Shown here in pieces: positions 8,184-55,651 of a stretch of DNA of 64,000 bases (within the stretch, counting starts at the first letter, position 1; every line of letters starts with the position of its first letter). The DNA lies in assembly GCA_024256265.1 (NCBI GenBank), contig JACGUK010000002.1, positions 90,018-154,017 on the forward strand. The letters are read 5' to 3'. The notes beneath the pieces were generated by a model. That model saw nothing but the letters and a program-made list of their open reading frames with translations, was not told the DNA's origin and searched no databases. This DNA comes from an archaeon (GTDB taxonomy: Archaea; Thermoproteota; Nitrososphaeria; Nitrososphaerales; JACAEJ01). The translations under genes were made by a program, and so were the position numbers.

Positions 8184-9368
8184 TTGCAAGCAGTTGAGCC
8201 ACTTCTATTATCAGGAAACCTTGCTATAGCTTATGCTGTAAAGCAACTCGATGTAGATGTGGTAGCAGCTTACCCTATTACACCACAAACCACTATTATC
8301 GAGAAGATTTCAGAATACGTTGCAAAAGGAGAGTTAAAAGCGAATTATATACTGGTTGAATCAGAGCATTCAGCCATATCAGCATGCCTATCTGCAGCTG
8401 CTAGTGGAGCAAGGGTCTTTACATCGAGTAGCTCACAAGGGCTACTTTTGATGCATGAAATACTCTTCATAACATCTGCGTTAAGGCTTCCAGTAATAAT
8501 GGCTGTAGCTAACAGATCAGTCTCAGCACCTATAAACATATGGAACGATCATGGAGACATAATGCCACAAAGAGATACAGGCTGGATTCAGTTATTCGTA
8601 GAGTCTGCTCAAGAGGCTTATGATAAAATTATTCAAGCATATAGGATAGCTGAAGATGATCGAGTGAGACTTCCTATTATGATTAACATCGATGGCATAG
8701 TCTTAAGCCATACCTATGAGCCTATATACCCCATTAGTGATTCAGAAGTTTCTTCATTCTCACCTTGGAATCTATACTCGACAAGATTAGACCCAGATAA
8801 CCCTCTAACCATGGGTGCTTTCTGCTACCCTGATTACTATTTTGAGACTAGGTACCAATCTGCAAAAGCATTGAGAGATTCTCTTCCAATAATATCTAAA
8901 GTGGATGAAGAGTTTGGCAAGTTATCAGGAAGAAGTTATGGTATAACATCTCCATTCAAGTGTGATGATGCAGATACAATTTTGATCTCTATGGGCTCCA
9001 TATCTACAACAGTTAGGGCTACTGTGAAGAAACTTAGAGAAAAGGGTGAAAAAGTAGGAATGATAAGCCTTAGACTCTTCAGACCTTTCCCCTTTGATGA
9101 AATAATCAAATCTATCAAGAATGCAAAGGCAATAGGTATTGTTGATAGAGCTCTTTCGCCAGGAGCTATAGCAGGACCAGTATTTACTGATGTAACTTCT
9201 GCCCTATACCTATCGAAGATGAGCATACCAGCTGCAAACTTCTTTGTAGGATTAGGAGGTAGGGATGTAAAGATGAACGATATTGAAATCATTTTCGATA
9301 AGCTCAAAGGGATAGCTAAAACTGGAATAGTTAAGGAGCATTCACACTACATTGGTTTGAGGGGATGA
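8184..9368 (+). CDS. porA: 2-oxoacid:ferredoxin oxidoreductase, alpha subunit
   Basis: The 394-residue alpha subunit contains AAYPITPQTTIIE and the ESEHSAISACLSAAASGARVF region that lines the thiamine pyrophosphate site, and FTSSSSQGLLLMHE. The start is TTG 8184, set by GGAGG at 8171-8175 eight bases upstream and by family alignment at LLLSGNLAIAYA. The C-terminal half is the transketolase-like domain with the later CoA-side residues. It overlaps porB by 4 bases. Confidence 0.95.
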   Translation: MQAVEPLLLSGNLAIAYAVKQLDVDVVAAYPITPQTTIIEKISEYVAKGELKANYILVESEHSAISACLSAAASGARVFTSSSSQGLLLMHEILFITSALRLPVIMAVANRSVSAPINIWNDHGDIMPQRDTGWIQLFVESAQEAYDKIIQAYRIAEDDRVRLPIMINIDGIVLSHTYEPIYPISDSEVSSFSPWNLYSTRLDPDNPLTMGAFCYPDYYFETRYQSAKALRDSLPIISKVDEEFGKLSGRSYGITSPFKCDDADTILISMGSISTTVRATVKKLREKGEKVGMISLRLFRPFPFDEIIKSIKNAKAIGIVDRALSPGAIAGPVFTDVTSALYLSKMSIPAANFFVGLGGRDVKMNDIEIIFDKLKGIAKTGIVKEHSHYIGLRG

Positions 9369-47078: not shown

Positions 47079-47489
47079 TTATGGTGTAACTATTGCTAAT
47101 CTTATCTGCTTTACTCCTCTTTTACTCATCAATTCTTGAGTAAGATCACGAATGGATTCAACCTTTCCTTTAACAGCAATTATCTCAAGGCAGTTTCTCT
47201 CATCTAAATGAATATGCATAGATGAGCTAATTATATCGCTATAAAGATGCTGAGCATCTGTCAAAGATTCTTCTAAACCTTTAACTTCATGGTCATAGAT
47301 CATAGCAAGGGCGCCCATAACTATGCCTTTTTCCTCATGCATCCATTTATTCTCTGTCAAGAAGTTTCTAATAGAGATTTGAATAGCCTTAGACCTATCG
47401 TAACCCATCTGCTTGATTATCTTATCGAATTCATCAAGTAGATCAGGGGGTAATGAAATGCTGATTCTTGAGACTCCTTTTTTAGCCAT
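47079..47489 (-). CDS. nikR: nickel-responsive regulator NikR
   Basis: The 136-residue protein has a ribbon-helix-helix N-terminus (SRISISLPPDLLDEFDKII) and an ACT-like metal domain. The four nickel ligands are in place: H81, H92, H94 and C100 (SMHIHLDERNC), with the E. coli spacing 11-2-6. It should repress nickel-related genes when nickel is bound. It is divergent from the small membrane gene, and the operator lies between them. Confidence 0.94.
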   Translation of the reverse strand: MAKKGVSRISISLPPDLLDEFDKIIKQMGYDRSKAIQISIRNFLTENKWMHEEKGIVMGALAMIYDHEVKGLEESLTDAQHLYSDIISSSMHIHLDERNCLEIIAVKGKVESIRDLTQELMSKRGVKQIRLAIVTP

Positions 47490-47535
47490 AATTCATCTTT
47501 ATTTAATTATTACTTATCATTAGAAAAACTTTTAT

Positions 47536-47565
47536 AGTATTACTGATTTTAAGATTAGTAATACT
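47536..47565. promoter_or_regulatory. NikR-type operator
   Basis: Perfect inverted repeat: AGTATTACT, 12 bases, AGTAATACT. Its cores GTATTA and TAATAC are 16 bases apart, the same geometry as the E. coli NikR site (GTATGA-N16-TCATAC). It lies 12 bp before ATG 47578 and 47 bp before the nikR start. A TTTTATAG box overlaps the left arm on the plus strand. Bound NikR would block the plus-strand gene and perhaps nikR itself. Confidence 0.8.
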
Positions 47566-47577
47566 GAGGTGAGAAAA

Positions 47578-47883
47578 ATGGTGTGTTATATTATACCTCT
47601 GGCAACGGCTGTGGTGCTATCCATTCTTTGGGGTTTTTCAAAGAAAGGTGCTTCAGGCTTCTGGCTCAACCTGCTACTTTATGGAGGTGCGGTGTTCGGA
47701 GTAGTGGATCACCTTTGGCATGGGGAGTTATTCCTTATTTCGCCAAATTGGATTGCCGACATAGCCTTAGGGGCTACAATCACTGGTGCAATATTCGGCG
47801 CATGGGGATTAACACTGGGTCTAGTTAAAATAAAACCCAGCCTAGCTTATCGTAGTGGGATTCTTCGAGAAGATAAAAAATAG
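47578..47883 (+). CDS. small membrane protein, predicted NikR target
   Basis: The 101-residue protein has three hydrophobic spans (CYIIPLATAVVLSILWGF, FWLNLLLYGGAVFGVV, IADIALGATITGAIFGAW). The loop DHLWHGELF, with two His and acidic residues, could touch metal. ATG 47578 with GAGGTGA five bases upstream is chosen over GTG 47569. It is not a recognised nickel transporter family. The perfect operator in front is the main clue to its role in nickel handling. Confidence 0.72.
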   Translation: MVCYIIPLATAVVLSILWGFSKKGASGFWLNLLLYGGAVFGVVDHLWHGELFLISPNWIADIALGATITGAIFGAWGLTLGLVKIKPSLAYRSGILREDKK

Positions 47884-48086
47884 GCAAAAAATCAAGCGTT
47901 ATATATGGATGGATGATCATAGCAGGGCTCAGTGGCTTTAATCCCTTCAATTTCCTTATAGCCCAATAGAAAACCATAGTATAAGATGGCAGATTTAGCT
48001 ATAACTGTTAAGGACTTAAAGAGAGTAAGCCTTCTCAATCGCCAGTTTGACTACAATTTTTGTGGTAGAAAATAATTTATTGGTAA

Positions 48087-48098
48087 TCCTTAAATATA
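48087..48098 (+). promoter_or_regulatory. TATA box of the riboflavin operon
   Basis: CTTAAATATAGA is centred about 26 bp before ATG 48119, which implies a leaderless transcript beginning at the ribB start codon. No FMN riboswitch-like structure is visible in the 160-bp spacer. Confidence 0.6.
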
Positions 48099-48118
48099 GA
48101 GATTTCAGCAAGATTCGT

Positions 48119-49311
<1,193 letters not shown>

Positions 49312-49324
49312 GAGGTGAATAAAT

Positions 49325-49777
49325 ATGGTACAATTGGCTTTAATCGTTTCTGAGTTCAACTTTGATATATCCTACCTTATGCTTGAGAGAGCTAAGGAGC
49401 ATGCAGCATTTTTAGGAGCTCAGATTACATACATTTGTAAAGCTCCTGGATCCTTTGATATGCCCTTATTGATCCAATCTTTATTAGAGAAGAAGGATGT
49501 AGATGCTGTTGTGACTCTTGGAGCAATAGTTGAAGGAGATACAAAGCATGATGAGATCATAGCTCAGCATGTAGCAAGAAAGATAGCTGACTTATCAGTC
49601 CAGTATAGAAAGCCAGTATCTTTAGGTGTATCAGGACCAGGGATGACTAGGCTTCAAGGTATAGAGCGCATAGATGAATATGCAAAAAGAGCTATTGAAT
49701 CTGCTGTAAAGATGGTGAAGAGGGCAAAGATTCTAGGAGAGATCAAAGTAACTCAATACCCAGCCATGGTGGAATAA
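49325..49777 (+). CDS. ribH: 6,7-dimethyl-8-ribityllumazine synthase
   Basis: RibH joins 5-amino-6-ribitylaminouracil with the RibB product. The 150 residues include IVSEFNFDISYLMLERAKE, APGSFDMPLLIQSL, TLGAIVEGDTKHDEIIAQHVA (catalytic His region) and GVSGPGMTRLQGIERID. GGAGGTGA immediately upstream of ATG 49325 fixes the start. The next gene begins one base after its stop. Confidence 0.96.
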   Translation: MVQLALIVSEFNFDISYLMLERAKEHAAFLGAQITYICKAPGSFDMPLLIQSLLEKKDVDAVVTLGAIVEGDTKHDEIIAQHVARKIADLSVQYRKPVSLGVSGPGMTRLQGIERIDEYAKRAIESAVKMVKRAKILGEIKVTQYPAMVE

Positions 49778-50542
49778 ATGAGTGGCAAATTAAAGATAAC
49801 ATTGATCAGAATAGATAATTATGGTCCATGGACTCTTGAGCTTGGTAATGATAGAGAGTACCAATTGCAGATAATTCAAGCTCAGCTTTATGCCCATTTA
49901 CAAAGATTGTTTGCAGAGAAAAATGGTGCCTTATTTTACAATCGCTTTGATGAGATGGTAGCCATAAGTAACGGAATTTCCTTAGAAGATCATCTAAAAA
50001 TCCAAGACGAAGTATGTAAGAATTATCCATTCACCATAAGCATGGGCATTGGTCTCGCTGAGAAACCTTACGATGCTTTAGAGATAGCCACAAAAGCCTT
50101 ACAGAGATATGGAAGTAGCTCGAGAGATGTAAAGAAAGTAGTAGTAGGCGAATTTGACGAATCTTATGAGAAAAGTGTAAAGATAGCCCATATAGATGTA
50201 AACAATGTAACAGGTAGGCTCATTGATAGATTATCAGCCTATGAAACTGCTTTGATGATAAACAGATTGAATGTAAAGTTGGGAGAGCTCTTTTTGAATC
50301 ATAAAGCGCTTACATTCTTTTGTGGTGGGGATAACTTTATGGTAGTAGCTAATGGCGTTTCAGAGATGGAGGTTAAGAAGATCCTTAAAAAAGCAGGCAA
50401 TGATTTTAACCTTACTTTGAAGGCAGGAATAGGAATAGCAAAAACTGCTCGTAAAGCTATAGAGCTAGCTACCAAAGGATTGGATTTTATTAGAAACGAT
50501 AAAGCAAATCGTCCTATTCATGAACTTTCTGATTTGTCATGA
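49778..50542 (+). CDS. arfA: GTP cyclohydrolase III
   Basis: ArfA opens the GTP ring to give the formamido pyrimidine (FAPy) intermediate, the first step of the archaeal riboflavin and F420 route. The 254 residues have two copies of a GGDEF-like fold: NRFDEMVAISNG and FFCGGDNFMVVANG mark the two halves, with LIRIDNYGPWTLELGNDRE at the start. It overlaps the amidohydrolase gene by 4 bases. Confidence 0.95.
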   Translation: MSGKLKITLIRIDNYGPWTLELGNDREYQLQIIQAQLYAHLQRLFAEKNGALFYNRFDEMVAISNGISLEDHLKIQDEVCKNYPFTISMGIGLAEKPYDALEIATKALQRYGSSSRDVKKVVVGEFDESYEKSVKIAHIDVNNVTGRLIDRLSAYETALMINRLNVKLGELFLNHKALTFFCGGDNFMVVANGVSEMEVKKILKKAGNDFNLTLKAGIGIAKTARKAIELATKGLDFIRNDKANRPIHELSDLS

Positions 50543-51780
50543 TGAGAAAGGCAGTAATAGAAGAAGTAAATGCAATAGCAAAGGATAGCCTTGATTTAAT
50601 AGAGAGAGCCTTTATAAGAATAGACGATGGCTATTTCACAGAATTTAGAGAGAGCCCTTCAAATCCATCAGGATATGTGAGGTATAAGGCAAAAGGCATG
50701 CTCATGATACCAGGATTGATAAATGCTCATACACATATAGGAGACTCTTTTTTCAAGGATTTTGGAGTGGGCAGATCTCTTATTGAGCTTTTTCGACCAA
50801 TAACTGGTTTAAAGCATAGGCTATTGGAATCAGCATCTGAAGACTTGATCATAAAATCTATGAGGAATTCAGCCTTTGACATGCTAAGATGTGGGATTAC
50901 AACCTTTGCTGACTTTCGTGAGGGAGGAAAGAGAGGGGTTATGCTTCTTAAGAAAGCTATTGAAGGATTGAAGATAAGAACCGTAATTTTAGGAAGACCT
51001 GATTACTATTTTAATGAAGATGAAGTTGTAGAGAATCATGCCATGCCAGAAGATAAGATTCGAGAGGTAGATGAGATATTAGAGCTATGTGATGGGATAG
51101 GATTAAGTGGTCCAAACGAGTATACAGATAGAGCTATGAATGAATTATCAAGATTGATCAAAATTAAGAAGAAGATTTGTGCCATACATGCGAGTGAAGA
51201 TAGATACTCTACGAATTTCTCTCTAAAGAATTTCCATCAAAGTGAAGTTGAGAGGGCTTTAAAAAATCTTGATTTAGATTTTATCATCCATCTGACTCAG
51301 GCAACAGAAGAAGATATAGAATCAGTTTCAAAGAAAAATATACCAGTTGTGTGCTGTCCAAGAGCCAACTCGATTTTAGGCTTAGGATTCCCACCAATAA
51401 TTAATATGATGAGAAAAAGAATAACAGTTGCCCTTGGAACAGATAACGTTATGCTCAACTCAGCAGACCTATTTCGTGAAATGGACTATACATCAAGAAT
51501 TTTAAGAGCATTAGAGAGAGATCCATCAGCAGTATCATCAAAGGATATCATGAAGATGACAACTATTAATTCTGCAAAAGCTCTGAAGCTAGATAAAGAG
51601 ATAGGCTCAATAGAAGAAGGAAAGAGGGCTGATGCTGTTTTCATAAATATGAGTGCAAAAAACCTTGAATCAATAAAAGACCCTATCAATGCAGTAGTGC
51701 ATAGAGTTAGACCTGATGATATTCAAGCAGTTATGGTAAATGGTGAGATAGCCTATGGTTCTTTACCAACGTACAAATGA
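50539..51780 (+). CDS. amidohydrolase-superfamily deaminase, candidate riboflavin-pathway deaminase
   Basis: The 413-residue protein has all metal and deaminase residues: HxH at 64-66 (NAHTHIGD), HxxE at 217-220 (IHASED; the Glu is the proton shuttle of deaminases), H251 and D302 (GTDN). The family contains guanine, cytosine and adenosylhomocysteine deaminases. It sits between arfA and arfC, overlapping both (4 and 26 bases), so it is translated with them. The archaeal pathway needs a deaminase acting on the ribitylamino-pyrimidine phosphate made by ArfC, and I know of no archaeal gene assigned to that step. This gene is the best candidate in this cluster. This is inference. Confidence 0.9.
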   Translation: MMRKAVIEEVNAIAKDSLDLIERAFIRIDDGYFTEFRESPSNPSGYVRYKAKGMLMIPGLINAHTHIGDSFFKDFGVGRSLIELFRPITGLKHRLLESASEDLIIKSMRNSAFDMLRCGITTFADFREGGKRGVMLLKKAIEGLKIRTVILGRPDYYFNEDEVVENHAMPEDKIREVDEILELCDGIGLSGPNEYTDRAMNELSRLIKIKKKICAIHASEDRYSTNFSLKNFHQSEVERALKNLDLDFIIHLTQATEEDIESVSKKNIPVVCCPRANSILGLGFPPIINMMRKRITVALGTDNVMLNSADLFREMDYTSRILRALERDPSAVSSKDIMKMTTINSAKALKLDKEIGSIEEGKRADAVFINMSAKNLESIKDPINAVVHRVRPDDIQAVMVNGEIAYGSLPTYK

Positions 51781-52429
51781 TCGACCTTACGTGATATTGA
51801 ATGCAGCTATGTCGATAGATGGAAAGATAGCAACAAAGAAAGGGGATTCTAAGATATCGAGCAAGGACGATCTTGTTCGAGTCCATAAGTTAAGAGCATC
51901 TGTAGATGCCATAATGGTAGGGATAAACACAGTTCTTATCGACGATCCTTCTTTGAAGGTCAAATATTGTGAGGGAAAGAACCCTATAAGAATAGTTGTG
52001 GATAGTAAAGCTAGGACTCCTATCAGATCAAGGATAATCTCAGATAAAGATGCTCCAACTTTGATCGCTGTCACTAATAAAGCACCAGTTGATAGAGTTA
52101 ATAAGCTCAAAGAGGCTGGAGCAAAGATAATAATATGTGGAGAAGGAGAAAAGGTCGATCTGGCTATCTTGCTCAAGACCCTTAAAGATATGGGAATAAA
52201 GAAGGTTCTTGTAGAAGGTGGTGGTAATATAAATTGGAGCATTATAAGCCAAGGCTTTTTTGACGAGTTACAGGTTACTATAGGACCTTTTATTGTTGGG
52301 GGGAGAGATGCCATAACTTTGGTTGAAGGCAATGGTGTAGAAAAAATAGATGAAAGCATTAAAGTGAATCTTCATAAAGTTGAGCACTATGGGGATGAGG
52401 TAGTCTTAATTTACAAAGTATCAAGGTGA
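51755..52429 (+). CDS. arfC: 2,5-diamino-6-(ribosylamino)pyrimidinone 5'-phosphate reductase
   Basis: ArfC (yeast Rib7-like) reduces the ribosyl side chain to ribityl with NAD(P)H. The 224 residues resemble the reductase half of RibD: PYVILNAAMSIDGKIATKKGDS, LRASVDAIMVGINTVLIDDPSL, KVLVEGGGNINWSII and VTIGPFIVGGRDA. No deaminase domain is present, unlike bacterial RibD, so deamination must be done by another enzyme. It overlaps the amidohydrolase gene by 26 bases. Confidence 0.95.
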   Translation: MVLYQRTNDRPYVILNAAMSIDGKIATKKGDSKISSKDDLVRVHKLRASVDAIMVGINTVLIDDPSLKVKYCEGKNPIRIVVDSKARTPIRSRIISDKDAPTLIAVTNKAPVDRVNKLKEAGAKIIICGEGEKVDLAILLKTLKDMGIKKVLVEGGGNINWSIISQGFFDELQVTIGPFIVGGRDAITLVEGNGVEKIDESIKVNLHKVEHYGDEVVLIYKVSR

Positions 52430-52433
52430 GATT

Positions 52434-53174
52434 TTGAAGAATTATCTTCCAGACCTAACTTGGCAAGAAGTAGATGAACTTAAGAGAAGGACTGATAAGG
52501 TTCTTATTCCCATAGGAAGCTTAGAGCAGCATGGTCCACATTTGCCTCTATCCACAGATACTATAATAGCCTTTGAAGTAGCAAAAAGAGTAGCAGAGAA
52601 ATTGGATATTGCTTTAGCCCCTCCAATAAGCTTGGGTTTTTCCATTGAGCATATGGACTTCTCAGGAACAGTATCTTTAGACCCTTTAACTTTGACAGCT
52701 CTTTTAAAGAATGTATGCTCAAGCTTAGCAAAGCACGGCTTCAAGAAGGTATTCATAATAAATGGTCATGGTGGAAATAGAGCTACTATAGAGAGTGCTA
52801 TTCAGCTTATAAAGAGTGAATTGAACATATCATTGTATTCCTTCACATTGTTGGGCATTGTTCAGAAGATTTTCAATAAGATAAGAGATTCTCCAGAAGG
52901 TGAATTAGGGCATGCTGATGAAATCGAGACATCTTTGATGCTAGCCATCTGCCCAGAAAAGGTGAAGATGAATAAATGCATAGATGAACCTCCTAAACTA
53001 CAAACTCATCTAACATTTGAAGCATCAAAGAAAGAAGTTGCATTCACATGGAGAACAAAGGAGATAAGTGAGTCAGGAGTGATTGGCGCTCCTAGCAAGG
53101 CATCAGAAGAGAAAGGAAGGCTAATGCTAGATTATCTGATAGATAAAATTACCACTATTGTTAAAGACCTATAG
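52434..53174 (+). CDS. arfB: FAPy deformylase (creatininase family)
   Basis: ArfB removes the formyl group from the ArfA product. The 246 residues contain the creatininase metal motifs: PIGSLEQHGPHLPLSTD, FIINGHGGNRATIE and LGHADEIETSLMLAI. The start is TTG 52434 after GGTGA. It is the last gene of the operon and converges on cofH with 5 bases between the stops. Confidence 0.95.
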   Translation: MKNYLPDLTWQEVDELKRRTDKVLIPIGSLEQHGPHLPLSTDTIIAFEVAKRVAEKLDIALAPPISLGFSIEHMDFSGTVSLDPLTLTALLKNVCSSLAKHGFKKVFIINGHGGNRATIESAIQLIKSELNISLYSFTLLGIVQKIFNKIRDSPEGELGHADEIETSLMLAICPEKVKMNKCIDEPPKLQTHLTFEASKKEVAFTWRTKEISESGVIGAPSKASEEKGRLMLDYLIDKITTIVKDL

Positions 53175-53179
53175 CTTCA

Positions 53180-54430
53180 TTAGATTTTTATAGATGAAAG
53201 CTTGCTTTCATCTAATTGGAATTTATCTAGCATATCTTCACTCTTCTCATCATTAAAGATTCTCAATATATCATATGTAGTCGATCTCTGAGCAGGAATT
53301 CTACCTATATCTCTAATGAGCCTTCTAAAATCTTTTGGACGTAAAAGTTGTCCATGGATTGCTCCAGCGGACCTCGATATACTCTCATCTATCAGAGTAC
53401 CACCGAGATCGTTGGCACCAGCATTCAAGCAGAATTGTGAAAGCTTTGTTCCTTCTTTGACCCAAGACACTTGTATGTTCTTCATGTAATTGTTCAGCAT
53501 AATCCTAGATACTGCATGCATCTTAACAACCTCTGCCCCTGTTGCCCCAGGTCTAACTCCTCTCACTAAACCTTTTTTATACATAGGAGCCTCAGAGTGG
53601 ACAAAGCTCAATGGCACAAACTCTGTTATACCATTGGTTTCTTTCTGTATGTCTCTTATTATTGCTATATGCCTAGCTTTATGTAATGAATTCTCTATAT
53701 GCCCATACATTATAGTTGAAGTGGTAGGTATGCCAAGCTTATGGGCTGTCTTGATCACATTTATCCAATCCTTGGTTCTTATCCTGCCAGGAGATATTAT
53801 CCTTCTTATTTCGTCATCAAGTATTTCTGCCGATGTACCAGGAAGGCTACCTATGCCAGCTTCCTTTAGCATCTTCAAATAATCCTCTACAGTTGTTTCT
53901 AATCTTAAAGCACCATATGCTATCTCTTCAGGAGAAAAAGCATGAATATGAATGTCAGGCAACTCTTTCTTTATGGCTTTGCAGACATTTATGTAAAGAT
54001 AACCATCCATACGTGGTGGGAGTCCGGCTTGAATGCAAACCTCTGTTGCACCTAGTTCCCATGCTTCTTTCGTTCTATGAACTACTTCTTTTATTGGTAA
54101 GAAATATCCTTCCTCATCTCTATAACCTCTGCTGAAGGCACAGAATCCACACCTCTTTATGCAAATATTCGTGAAGTTGATGTTACGATTTATAATATAA
54201 GTGACTATATTACCAACTTTCTGGCGCCTTAGTTCATCAGCAACAAGCATCAAAGTGTTCATCTCAATACCCTTAGCTTCAAAGAGCTCAACACCTTCCT
54301 CTACAGAAATTTCTTTACCATCTATCGCTTTATCAAGGATAGATGCTATTACAGGGTCTATTACATGAAGTAAGCTTTCAAATAGAGAATGAAGTTTAGT
54401 GAGATTAGAATCAGGTAAATTTAAACTCAA
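53180..54430 (-). CDS. cofH: FO synthase subunit CofH
   Basis: CofH is the radical SAM enzyme that couples tyrosine-derived radical to 5-amino-6-ribitylaminouracil for F420. The cluster motif is CIKRCGFCAF (CxxxCxxC). Later TEVCIQAGLPPR, HIHAFSPEEIAYG, GIGSLPGTSAEILDDEIRR and LNAGANDLGGT are typical. The 416-residue length is normal. Its start directly follows the cofG stop, so cofG-cofH is one operon. Confidence 0.96.
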   Translation of the reverse strand: MSLNLPDSNLTKLHSLFESLLHVIDPVIASILDKAIDGKEISVEEGVELFEAKGIEMNTLMLVADELRRQKVGNIVTYIINRNINFTNICIKRCGFCAFSRGYRDEEGYFLPIKEVVHRTKEAWELGATEVCIQAGLPPRMDGYLYINVCKAIKKELPDIHIHAFSPEEIAYGALRLETTVEDYLKMLKEAGIGSLPGTSAEILDDEIRRIISPGRIRTKDWINVIKTAHKLGIPTTSTIMYGHIENSLHKARHIAIIRDIQKETNGITEFVPLSFVHSEAPMYKKGLVRGVRPGATGAEVVKMHAVSRIMLNNYMKNIQVSWVKEGTKLSQFCLNAGANDLGGTLIDESISRSAGAIHGQLLRPKDFRRLIRDIGRIPAQRSTTYDILRIFNDEKSEDMLDKFQLDESKLSSIKI

Positions 54431-55651
54431 TCAGAAGCCTCCTTTAACAAAGCCTTCATCATCAACTAGAGAAATTATATAACTTTTAAGAGATTTTGGT
54501 AAGAGACCAGCCTTATTCAATATGAACTCAGGATATATAGGTAGCCTAGCCTTTAACTCAAAGCCCTTTTGCTCTGTTATTCTCTTAAGAGCCTTTATTT
54601 CAGGCCATGGTGCTTCAGGGTTTACAAAGTCTTTTGTAACAGGGGAGATTCCACCCCAATCGTTTATCCCTGCTGATAGATAAGCACTATACTCTTTGCT
54701 AAGGTTCGGTGGTGCCTGTATGTTCATCTTACCAAGAAAGATAAGTCTTGCTAAAGCTATGGTTTTAGCTATATCTTTTACATTTGGCTCTGGATAAGAT
54801 TCCATAGGAGTTTTTGGCTTTGCTTTAAAATTTTGAATTATTATCTCTTGAATATGACCATACTTTTCGTTAATTTCCTTTATAGCGTAGAGAGAATCTA
54901 TTATCTCTTCAGGAAACTCTCCTATTCCTATCAATAAACCAGTGGTGAAGGGTATCTTTAGCTGACCAGCATCTTCAATTGTAGTCAATCTCAGCTTAGG
55001 TCTTTTACCTGGAGAGAACTCATGAGGTCCGCCTTTATCACATAATCTATCACTAACATTCTCAAGCATCAACCCCATACTTGCATTCACCTCCTTTAGA
55101 TCAGCCAATTCACTCTTTGTCATCACTCCTGGATTAGAATGAGGAAGAAGACCTGTCTTATTTATGACCATCTCACACATATCTCTCAAGTATTCCAGTG
55201 TGCTATTGTACCCTAATCTCTTCAGCTCTTCATTAACTTCTGGATATTTTTGCTCAGGCTTCTCACCCAGAGTGAAGAGGGCTTCTGTGCAATGGGCTTT
55301 ATTACCAGCTTTTGCAAAAGATAGAACTTTGCTGGGCTTCATAATTTCTGCATCATTATCATCAGGCTCCTTTCTAAAGCTACAGTATCCACATCTATTT
55401 CTGCAAATATTTGTCAAGGGTATGAATATCTTTCTCGAGTATGTTATACACTTTCCTTTACTATCATCTCGAATCATGCTGGCTACAGACATTAGTGCTT
55501 GTAGATTATTACTCCTTATCAGACGATAAGCATCTTCTCTTTTAATCTCTCTCCCATCAAGGCTTTTATATAATGCTTCTCTAATTTCTGAATCAGTTTC
55601 ATTATCTTCAATAAGATCAACGATGCCCTGCTTTGAGCTTATGATGCTCAT
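54431..55651 (-). CDS. cofG: FO synthase subunit CofG
   Basis: CofG completes formation of the deazaflavin FO. The radical SAM motif is CRNRCGYCSF, followed by EALFTLGEKPEQKYP, NPGVMTKSELADLKEVNASMGLMLE and GIGEFPEEIIDSL. The 406 residues are complete. With CofH it makes FO, the F420 core. The pair is placed opposite the genes that make its ribitylaminouracil substrate. Confidence 0.96.
   Translation of the reverse strand: MSIISSKQGIVDLIEDNETDSEIREALYKSLDGREIKREDAYRLIRSNNLQALMSVASMIRDDSKGKCITYSRKIFIPLTNICRNRCGYCSFRKEPDDNDAEIMKPSKVLSFAKAGNKAHCTEALFTLGEKPEQKYPEVNEELKRLGYNSTLEYLRDMCEMVINKTGLLPHSNPGVMTKSELADLKEVNASMGLMLENVSDRLCDKGGPHEFSPGKRPKLRLTTIEDAGQLKIPFTTGLLIGIGEFPEEIIDSLYAIKEINEKYGHIQEIIIQNFKAKPKTPMESYPEPNVKDIAKTIALARLIFLGKMNIQAPPNLSKEYSAYLSAGINDWGGISPVTKDFVNPEAPWPEIKALKRITEQKGFELKARLPIYPEFILNKAGLLPKSLKSYIISLVDDEGFVKGGF

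Follow-up and report, generated by a model that had tools for sequence, protein, structure and literature searches.

An amidohydrolase-superfamily protein encoded between arfA and arfC as the probable archaeal deaminase of riboflavin and F420 precursor synthesis

The routes to riboflavin and F420 are common up to 5-amino-6-ribitylaminouracil, as described in the accessible parts of PMC8498797 and PMC3403918. Here we focus on the deamination step of this common stretch and on a candidate gene for it. The window, that is the whole stretch of DNA analysed, comprises 64,000 nucleotides from an archaeon of the class Nitrososphaeria (NCBI GenBank assembly GCA_024256265.1, contig JACGUK010000002.1, positions 90,018 to 154,017 of the forward strand). 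At window positions 50539..51780 of the + strand it encodes an amidohydrolase-superfamily protein (AH) of 413 amino acids with an ATG start, the fifth gene in a seven-gene + strand run ordered ribB-ribC-ribH-arfA-AH-arfC-creatininase. Sequence, operon, motif and fold prediction, together with co-occurrence, co-location and family separation, make it very probable that AH is the archaeal deaminase acting between ArfC and the common riboflavin/F420 precursor; the substrate and the residue roles given below are inferred.

EC 3.1.3.104 denotes the phosphatase step of this pathway. For Haloferax, the available part of PMC8305020 reports three remaining riboflavin gaps, with candidates for two of them predicted in Rodionova et al. 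2017; in Table 6 of that review of gaps, the entry following arfC is HVO_2483 (34% identity to MJ0699), marked as a ‘prediction’, and EC 3.1.3.104 is still empty. This leaves HVO_2483/MJ0699 as the candidate for the deaminase. The genomes of M. jannaschii, H. volcanii and M. acetivorans each contain a match at E<=1e-60 to the protein profile NF005552, which also recognizes AH, and in two of the three species it exceeds the cut-off. Since both M. jannaschii and H. volcanii are among them, HVO_2483/MJ0699 likely belong to the same family as AH. The initial annotation regarded the archaeal deaminase as unassigned, which holds in that no proven enzyme appeared in the papers accessible, but a candidate had already been predicted in 2017 (PMC8305020, in the part available). 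No published assay of the archaeal deamination step was found in titles and abstract openings, a search which left most subscription papers outside. The accessible parts of PMC9478397 and PMC8256712 assign the archaeal step to RibD or Rib2, that of PMC13028884 describes it without an archaeal gene, and the portions available of PMC12855090, PMC3087415 and PMC8498797 contain nothing on deamination.

The AH reading frame lies between arfA and arfC and overlaps both, exactly as first annotated. The arfA gene for GTP cyclohydrolase III (49778..50542, + strand; PF05165, 263 bits; NF002587, 263 bits, under the cut-off of 306) shares an ATGA between its stop and the AH start. At the other end, AH overlaps by 26 nt the listed start of arfC (51755..52429, + strand), which encodes the 2,5-diamino-6-ribosylaminopyrimidinone 5′-phosphate reductase (TIGR01508, 239.9 bits vs a cut-off of 186). 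For ArfC, Pfam gives PF01872 alone, hence the protein is without a deaminase domain, again as annotated.

The family was delimited in several ways. Among the 25 of 45 NCBIfam matches listed, AH exceeds the cut-off of a single equivalog, NF005552/PRK07213 ‘chlorohydrolase’ (360.6 vs 294 bits), which carries no pathway assignment. Its Pfam matches are PF01979 and PF07969 only, and the cytidine-deaminase domain of RibD and Rib2 is not among them. The phylum-wide profile searches each covered 121 genomes of one archaeal phylum, taken to be the same set throughout (G002-G122), which we take to be Thermoproteota, selected with a completeness filter of 90. NF005552 matched 87 of these genomes; the best match of 83 was used, and four weak ones (G066, G076, G078, G114) were left out. 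In the 22/121 genomes exceeding the cut-off, AH always has arfA or RibD_C (PF01872) no more than 1 kb away, and the same is true of all 12 genomes scoring 140-294 bits, vs 0/49 of those with weaker best matches. The NF005552 cut-off alone was therefore rejected as a family boundary, since it covers 22 genomes and misses 12 arf-linked ones, and profile A1 was built from 29 relatives. This profile separates 53 genomes at 331-456 bits from G067 at 169 bits and from the other matches listed at <=168 bits, with the limit that it includes rows of genomes later scored, which raises their scores. In a tree obtained by a quick method, all but one of the 23 paralogues form a group (SH-aLRT 99) separate from the 49 family rows. 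The tree and the residue counts below omit the near-identical rows L018, L019 and L021 and the duplicates L003 and L004, and G067 was handled separately.

The distribution of AH closely follows the archaeal pathway. AH and arfA occur together in 50 genomes, AH alone in 3, arfA alone in 1 and neither in 67. Furthermore, the 51 genomes with ribB are identical to those with arfA; AH is present in 50 of them, and the 51st, G067, carries a divergent copy, so that in the sample the archaeal pathway is almost always accompanied by AH. Full-length bacterial RibD over the cut-off was found in 0/121 genomes, the models used including none for stand-alone cytidine-deaminase-fold enzymes of the fungal Rib2 type. 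Within this one phylum, AH is thus present where the archaeal pathway is and bacterial RibD is absent. The comparison with RibD_C gave 52 genomes with both, one with AH only (G077), 14 with RibD_C only and 54 with neither. As ribB is missing from these 14 genomes save G067, RibD_C by itself does not identify riboflavin producers and was rejected as a pathway marker. As a separate observation, arfA and ribB each occur a second time in genome G062, on another contig (C9 5396-6860), by duplication or contamination.

Co-location was assessed from the distances between profile matches. In 34/53 genomes, arfA or RibD_C is no more than 100 bp from AH (19 both, 9 arfA only, 6 RibD_C only); the count rises to 36/53 at 3 kb and 38/53 at 12 kb. 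The other amidohydrolases, represented by 65 profile A1 matches under 169 bits with G067 left out, behave differently: 0/65 are within 12 kb of arfA or RibD_C, including 23 in genomes holding those genes. The gene order ribB-ribC-ribH-arfA-AH of the window is repeated in loci L040 and L041. In L045 the order is arfC-arfA-ribB-ribC-ribH-AH, with an arfB-like gene next on the opposite strand, and in L043 AH is divergent from ribB-ribC-ribH-arfA. Two relatives in genome contigs, with 76% and 81% identity, keep arfA and AH together; arfC lies 1.6 kb farther on in L002 and, according to the open reading frame list read by eye, does not adjoin AH in L001. AH is co-located with arf, rib and cof genes in other genomes too. 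The check proposed with the initial annotation, co-occurrence with arfA/arfC without RibD and co-location elsewhere, thus came out in favour of a pathway deaminase.

These neighbourhoods also bear on a simpler explanation, in which AH would be an ordinary purine, SAH, 5′-deoxyadenosine or guanine deaminase sitting in the operon by chance. The best solved-structure relatives do include MTA/SAH deaminases, and database names read chlorohydrolase or cytosine/adenosine deaminase-related. However, AH scores far under the corresponding equivalogs, namely DadD NF005557 for 5′-deoxyadenosine (122.3 vs a cut-off of 522), NF012037 for MTA/SAH deaminase (60.5 vs 779) and TIGR02967 for guanine deaminase (73.3 vs 375.4). 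Amidohydrolases of the longer type exist in some of the same genomes, none of the 65 being near arf genes, and chance does not explain the repeated arf/cof neighbours. This explanation was rejected on scores and neighbours, and we consider it very improbable. It had been anticipated that nearest relatives which are strictly guanine, SAH or atrazine deaminases, combined with a lack of co-location, would speak against the pathway role; instead, the other amidohydrolases form a separate group away from arfA and arfC.

Two further observations were made around AH loci. A gene for a DUF2208 predicted membrane protein is near AH in 5/5 loci tested, divergent from AH in three (L042 12828-13580, L049 4143-4907, L051 9882-10658) and about 0.6 kb upstream of ribB-ribC-ribH-arfA-AH in two (L040 3267-4022, L041 3320-4093); it is possible that it encodes a flavin-related membrane protein. 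In addition, haloarchaeal relatives of AH are plasmid-encoded, one of the plasmids being pNRC200 of Halobacterium salinarum NRC-1 (L034 4881-5933, L035 4881-5897, L036 4878-5897, L037 4881-5897), and three of these four copies were scored, at 246-270 bits on NF005552. No arf linkage was found at the four copies, which have genes for carbonic anhydrase and potassium transport, among others, as neighbours. Should these copies encode the deaminase, a vitamin gene would be plasmid-borne there.

Because the riboflavin and F420 steps are common up to 5-amino-6-ribitylaminouracil, genomes with cofG/cofH but without ribB can help to place AH. Neither ribB nor arfA is matched in G019 and G099, whose operons have the order AH-arfC-cofG-cofH. 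G093 lacks the same two matches, and there AH and arfC adjoin each other at the end of a contig. Within the class to which G019 belongs, the AH family was found at E<=1e-60 in 8/121 genomes, 7 of them new. Five of the seven hold AH-arfC-cofG-cofH, with arfA in front in G151 and with cofH running off the contig in G125, and G172 has AH-cofG-cofH on a 6.7-kb contig. A ribB match is absent from 9 of these 10 genomes (G019, G093, G099 and the 7 new ones), the exception being G137, with the limit that incomplete genomes could hide single genes; G001, also searched, has ribB. Of the 9 genomes in which ribB is not matched, 7 link AH to cofG/cofH, six of them as AH-arfC-cofG-cofH. The compact operons are found at L108 8744-13028, L109 9056-13269, L119 7930-12284, L120 4589-8881, L121 4482-9425 (arfA in front), L122 1-3328 and L123 893-5181, and 6/7 are in genomes without a ribB match. 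The linkage to cofG/cofH without ribB indicates that AH belongs to the stretch common to riboflavin and F420, in which deformylation, deamination and dephosphorylation are the steps with an open enzyme. As deformylation has its own candidate gene, deamination fits AH, a deaminase-type metal hydrolase, best.

The ribB-less compact operons apparently serve precursor synthesis for F420 only. No match to GTP cyclohydrolase II or III was found in G019, G093 and G099. Taken together, this leads to a wider proposal, to which we give slightly less than an even chance: AH would be a dedicated non-RibD deaminase family for the riboflavin/F420 precursor, some ribB-less archaea would keep AH-arfC-cofG-cofH for F420 alone, and at least G019 and G099, being without GTP cyclohydrolase III or II, would use another, unknown first enzyme. 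In L109, a DUF447 protein with weak flavin-reductase similarity is encoded directly upstream of AH in such an operon (8405-9046). In the control Methanosarcina acetivorans, AH, RibD_C and RibB are present, and no match to GTP cyclohydrolase III, cyclohydrolase II or PF02633 was found; by the models used, the first pathway steps have no gene there.

The same loci help to judge whether AH could instead be the FAPy deformylase of the ArfB step, with the neighbouring creatininase-family protein doing something else. Amidohydrolases hydrolyse amides too, AH is within 100 bp of arfA in 28/53 genomes (19 with both neighbours and 9 with arfA only), and the creatininase-family protein of the window (PF02633, 246 bits) reaches 43.9 bits with the ArfB model NF033501, far under its cut-off of 180. 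Against this stand G019, G093 and G099, where AH adjoins arfC in genomes without an arfA match, and M. acetivorans, which has AH and RibD_C but neither ArfA nor PF02633. A PF02633 protein accompanies AH in 52/53 genomes, this family being broad and also present in 38 of the 68 genomes without AH. Moreover, removal of the formyl group from the ArfA product has been demonstrated for SMc02977, annotated as a creatininase (PMC9478397, in the part available), and this makes a deformylase role of the window protein, assigned by family and position, likely. The AH sequence itself carries an HxxE motif, which is of deaminase type. The deformylase reading was rejected on these grounds, and we regard it as very unlikely. 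The ‘FAPy deformylase’ of the initial annotation thus keeps its probable role but, by profile, is a member of the general creatininase family.

The residues of AH are consistent with deaminase chemistry. In an alignment of 72 amidohydrolases (49 family rows and 23 paralogues), the metal site reported in the initial annotation was confirmed at the same positions and is invariant in 72/72: H64-x-H66 (50728..50736), H217-x-x-E220 with the metal ligand and the catalytic Glu (51187..51198), H251 (51289..51291) and D302 (in 51442..51447), all on the + strand. With its HxH, the His of HxxE, a further His and the Asp, AH has the features of the mononuclear HxxE deaminases of the amidohydrolase superfamily (COG0402 type). 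A second group of residues on the same strand is family-specific. D69 (50743..50745) and N303, adjacent to D302, are found in 49/49 family rows vs 0/23 paralogues, and K92 (50812..50814) and E128 (50920..50922) each in 49/49 vs 1/23. R275 (51361..51363) is present in 48/49 vs 0/23 and R389 (51703..51705) in 47/49 vs 0/23; in copies looked at separately, R275 is replaced by A in G067 and by K in L124, and R389 by I in G067. Seven further genomes outside the definition of this signature are an independent check: D69, K92, E128 and N303 occur in 7/7, R275 in 6/7 and R389 in 7/7. The divergent G067 copy keeps the metal site, E220, D69, K92, E128 and N303, but is without R275 and R389. An AF2 model of AH (pLDDT 93.9, pTM 0.94; alignment with 49 of 120 proteins listed) shows the superfamily barrel fold. 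In the model, D69, E128, R275 and N303 directly follow strands 60-65, 120-127, 270-272 and 297-299; strand ends are the active-site location in this superfamily.

We therefore suggest the following order of events, in which the roles of the catalytic residues are taken from general knowledge of the superfamily. ArfA would open GTP, and the creatininase-family protein would take off the formyl group. ArfC would then turn the ribosyl into a ribityl side chain by reduction. AH would hydrolyse the 2-amino group of 2,5-diamino-6-(5-phospho-D-ribitylamino)pyrimidin-4(3H)-one, giving 5-amino-6-(5-phospho-D-ribitylamino)uracil and ammonia, and a phosphatase step would yield the substrate for RibH (riboflavin) and CofG/CofH (FO). 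In the active site, one divalent metal on H64, H66, H217 and D302 might activate water, H251 and D302 might act as acid-base partners, and E220 might protonate the ring nitrogen adjoining the leaving amino group. Recognition of the 5-amino group and of the ribityl phosphate is probably the task of D69, K92, E128, R275, N303 and R389. For the phosphatase, the Pfam matches of a few AH neighbours contained no candidate.

A related pathway compound could also be the substrate, for instance the ribosyl intermediate before ArfC or a dephosphorylated one. Comparative genomics cannot tell these substrates apart, and AH is beside arfA (28/53) about as often as beside arfC (25/53). Nevertheless, the archaeal order is reduction followed by deamination (Graupner et al. 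2002, as cited in the accessible parts of PMC13028884, PMC3403918 and PMC8256712), and we attach very little probability to these variants. Deamination of the phosphorylated ribityl intermediate, as proposed in the initial annotation, is supported by co-occurrence, gene neighbours and family separation.

Several points weigh against this assignment. The association of AH with arfA (Fisher p 3.7e-29) ignores shared descent. G077 is positive with profile A1 but has no RibD_C match, and in 15/53 genomes neither arfA nor RibD_C is found within 12 kb of AH. In G149, none of the rib, arf or cof genes searched for is a neighbour of AH. Four AH genomes (G069, G093, G111, G117) show weak similarity (E 1e-5 to 6e-4) to the half of RibD that carries the deaminase; the matching frames of 155-167 amino acids are probably other small deaminases. 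The breadth of the creatininase family, mentioned above, reduces the value of its co-occurrence with AH. The residue evidence is partly circular because rows away from arf genes were placed in the family by length and tree. Finally, the rooted split between family and paralogues is weak (SH-aLRT 9) when L077 is included, which is due to this one long-branch row.

The remaining genes of the window operon agree with the content described in the initial annotation. Upstream of arfA, ribB (48047..48841; TIGR00506, 238 bits vs a cut-off of 177; PF00926), ribC for archaeal riboflavin synthase (48838..49311; TIGR01506, 220 vs 100.6 bits) and ribH for lumazine synthase (49325..49777; TIGR00114, 140.7 vs 84.6 bits) are all encoded on the + strand. 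The gene for the creatininase-family protein, the probable FAPy deformylase (ArfB/BrbF role), closes the run at 52434..53174 (+ strand). On the opposite strand, the FO synthase subunit genes cofH (53180..54430; TIGR03551, 497 bits vs 374) and cofG (54431..55651; TIGR03550, 469 bits vs 213) converge tail-to-tail with the operon, leaving a gap of 5 bp; the initial annotation of AH did not include this pair. Upstream of the rib operon, 47079-47883 encodes a NikR-type regulator (PF08753) and a small protein without a Pfam match; at the corresponding place, L001 has three genes resembling a CbiM-CbiQ-CbiO cobalt/nickel transporter, named by eye.

If the assignment is true, AH fills one unproven step of archaeal riboflavin and F420 synthesis and replaces the misleading names ‘chlorohydrolase’ and ‘cytosine deaminase’. 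The residue signature would then find the deaminase even outside operons, and the cofG/cofH operons without ribB place AH independently of the riboflavin genes. Annotation is affected elsewhere: in the accessible part of PMC7848895, ‘creatininase’ and ‘cytosine deaminase (COG0402)’ calls are used to infer creatinine degradation in Thaumarchaeota. Given the creatininase gene and AH in the window, some of these calls may be riboflavin-pathway enzymes. As far as the literature searched goes, we believe that three elements are new: the broad co-occurrence test, the signature of family-specific residues, and the operons that link AH to cofG/cofH in the absence of ribB.

AH is not a new kind of system, and its differences from described enzymes are of several types. 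The name of NF005552/PRK07213 implies a dehalogenase, and none of the present data point to such an activity. The MTA/SAH deaminases and TM0936 (COG0402 type; PDB 4f0s, 4gbd, 1p1m) share 20-22% identity with AH, and D69, R275 and N303 are found in none of the 23 aligned paralogues. The isocytosine deaminase Vcz (7ww2, 8is4) and guanine deaminase (2i9u, 2uz9) are 17-18% identical to AH and act on free bases, in contrast to the ribityl phosphate proposed for AH. Lastly, bacterial RibD and fungal Rib2 carry out the same pathway step as proposed for AH, Rib2 on the same proposed substrate, and belong to the cytidine-deaminase superfamily (PMC8256712, in the part available). The fold of AH is different, so that an unrelated protein would do the job of RibD and Rib2 in these archaea, as a non-homologous replacement.

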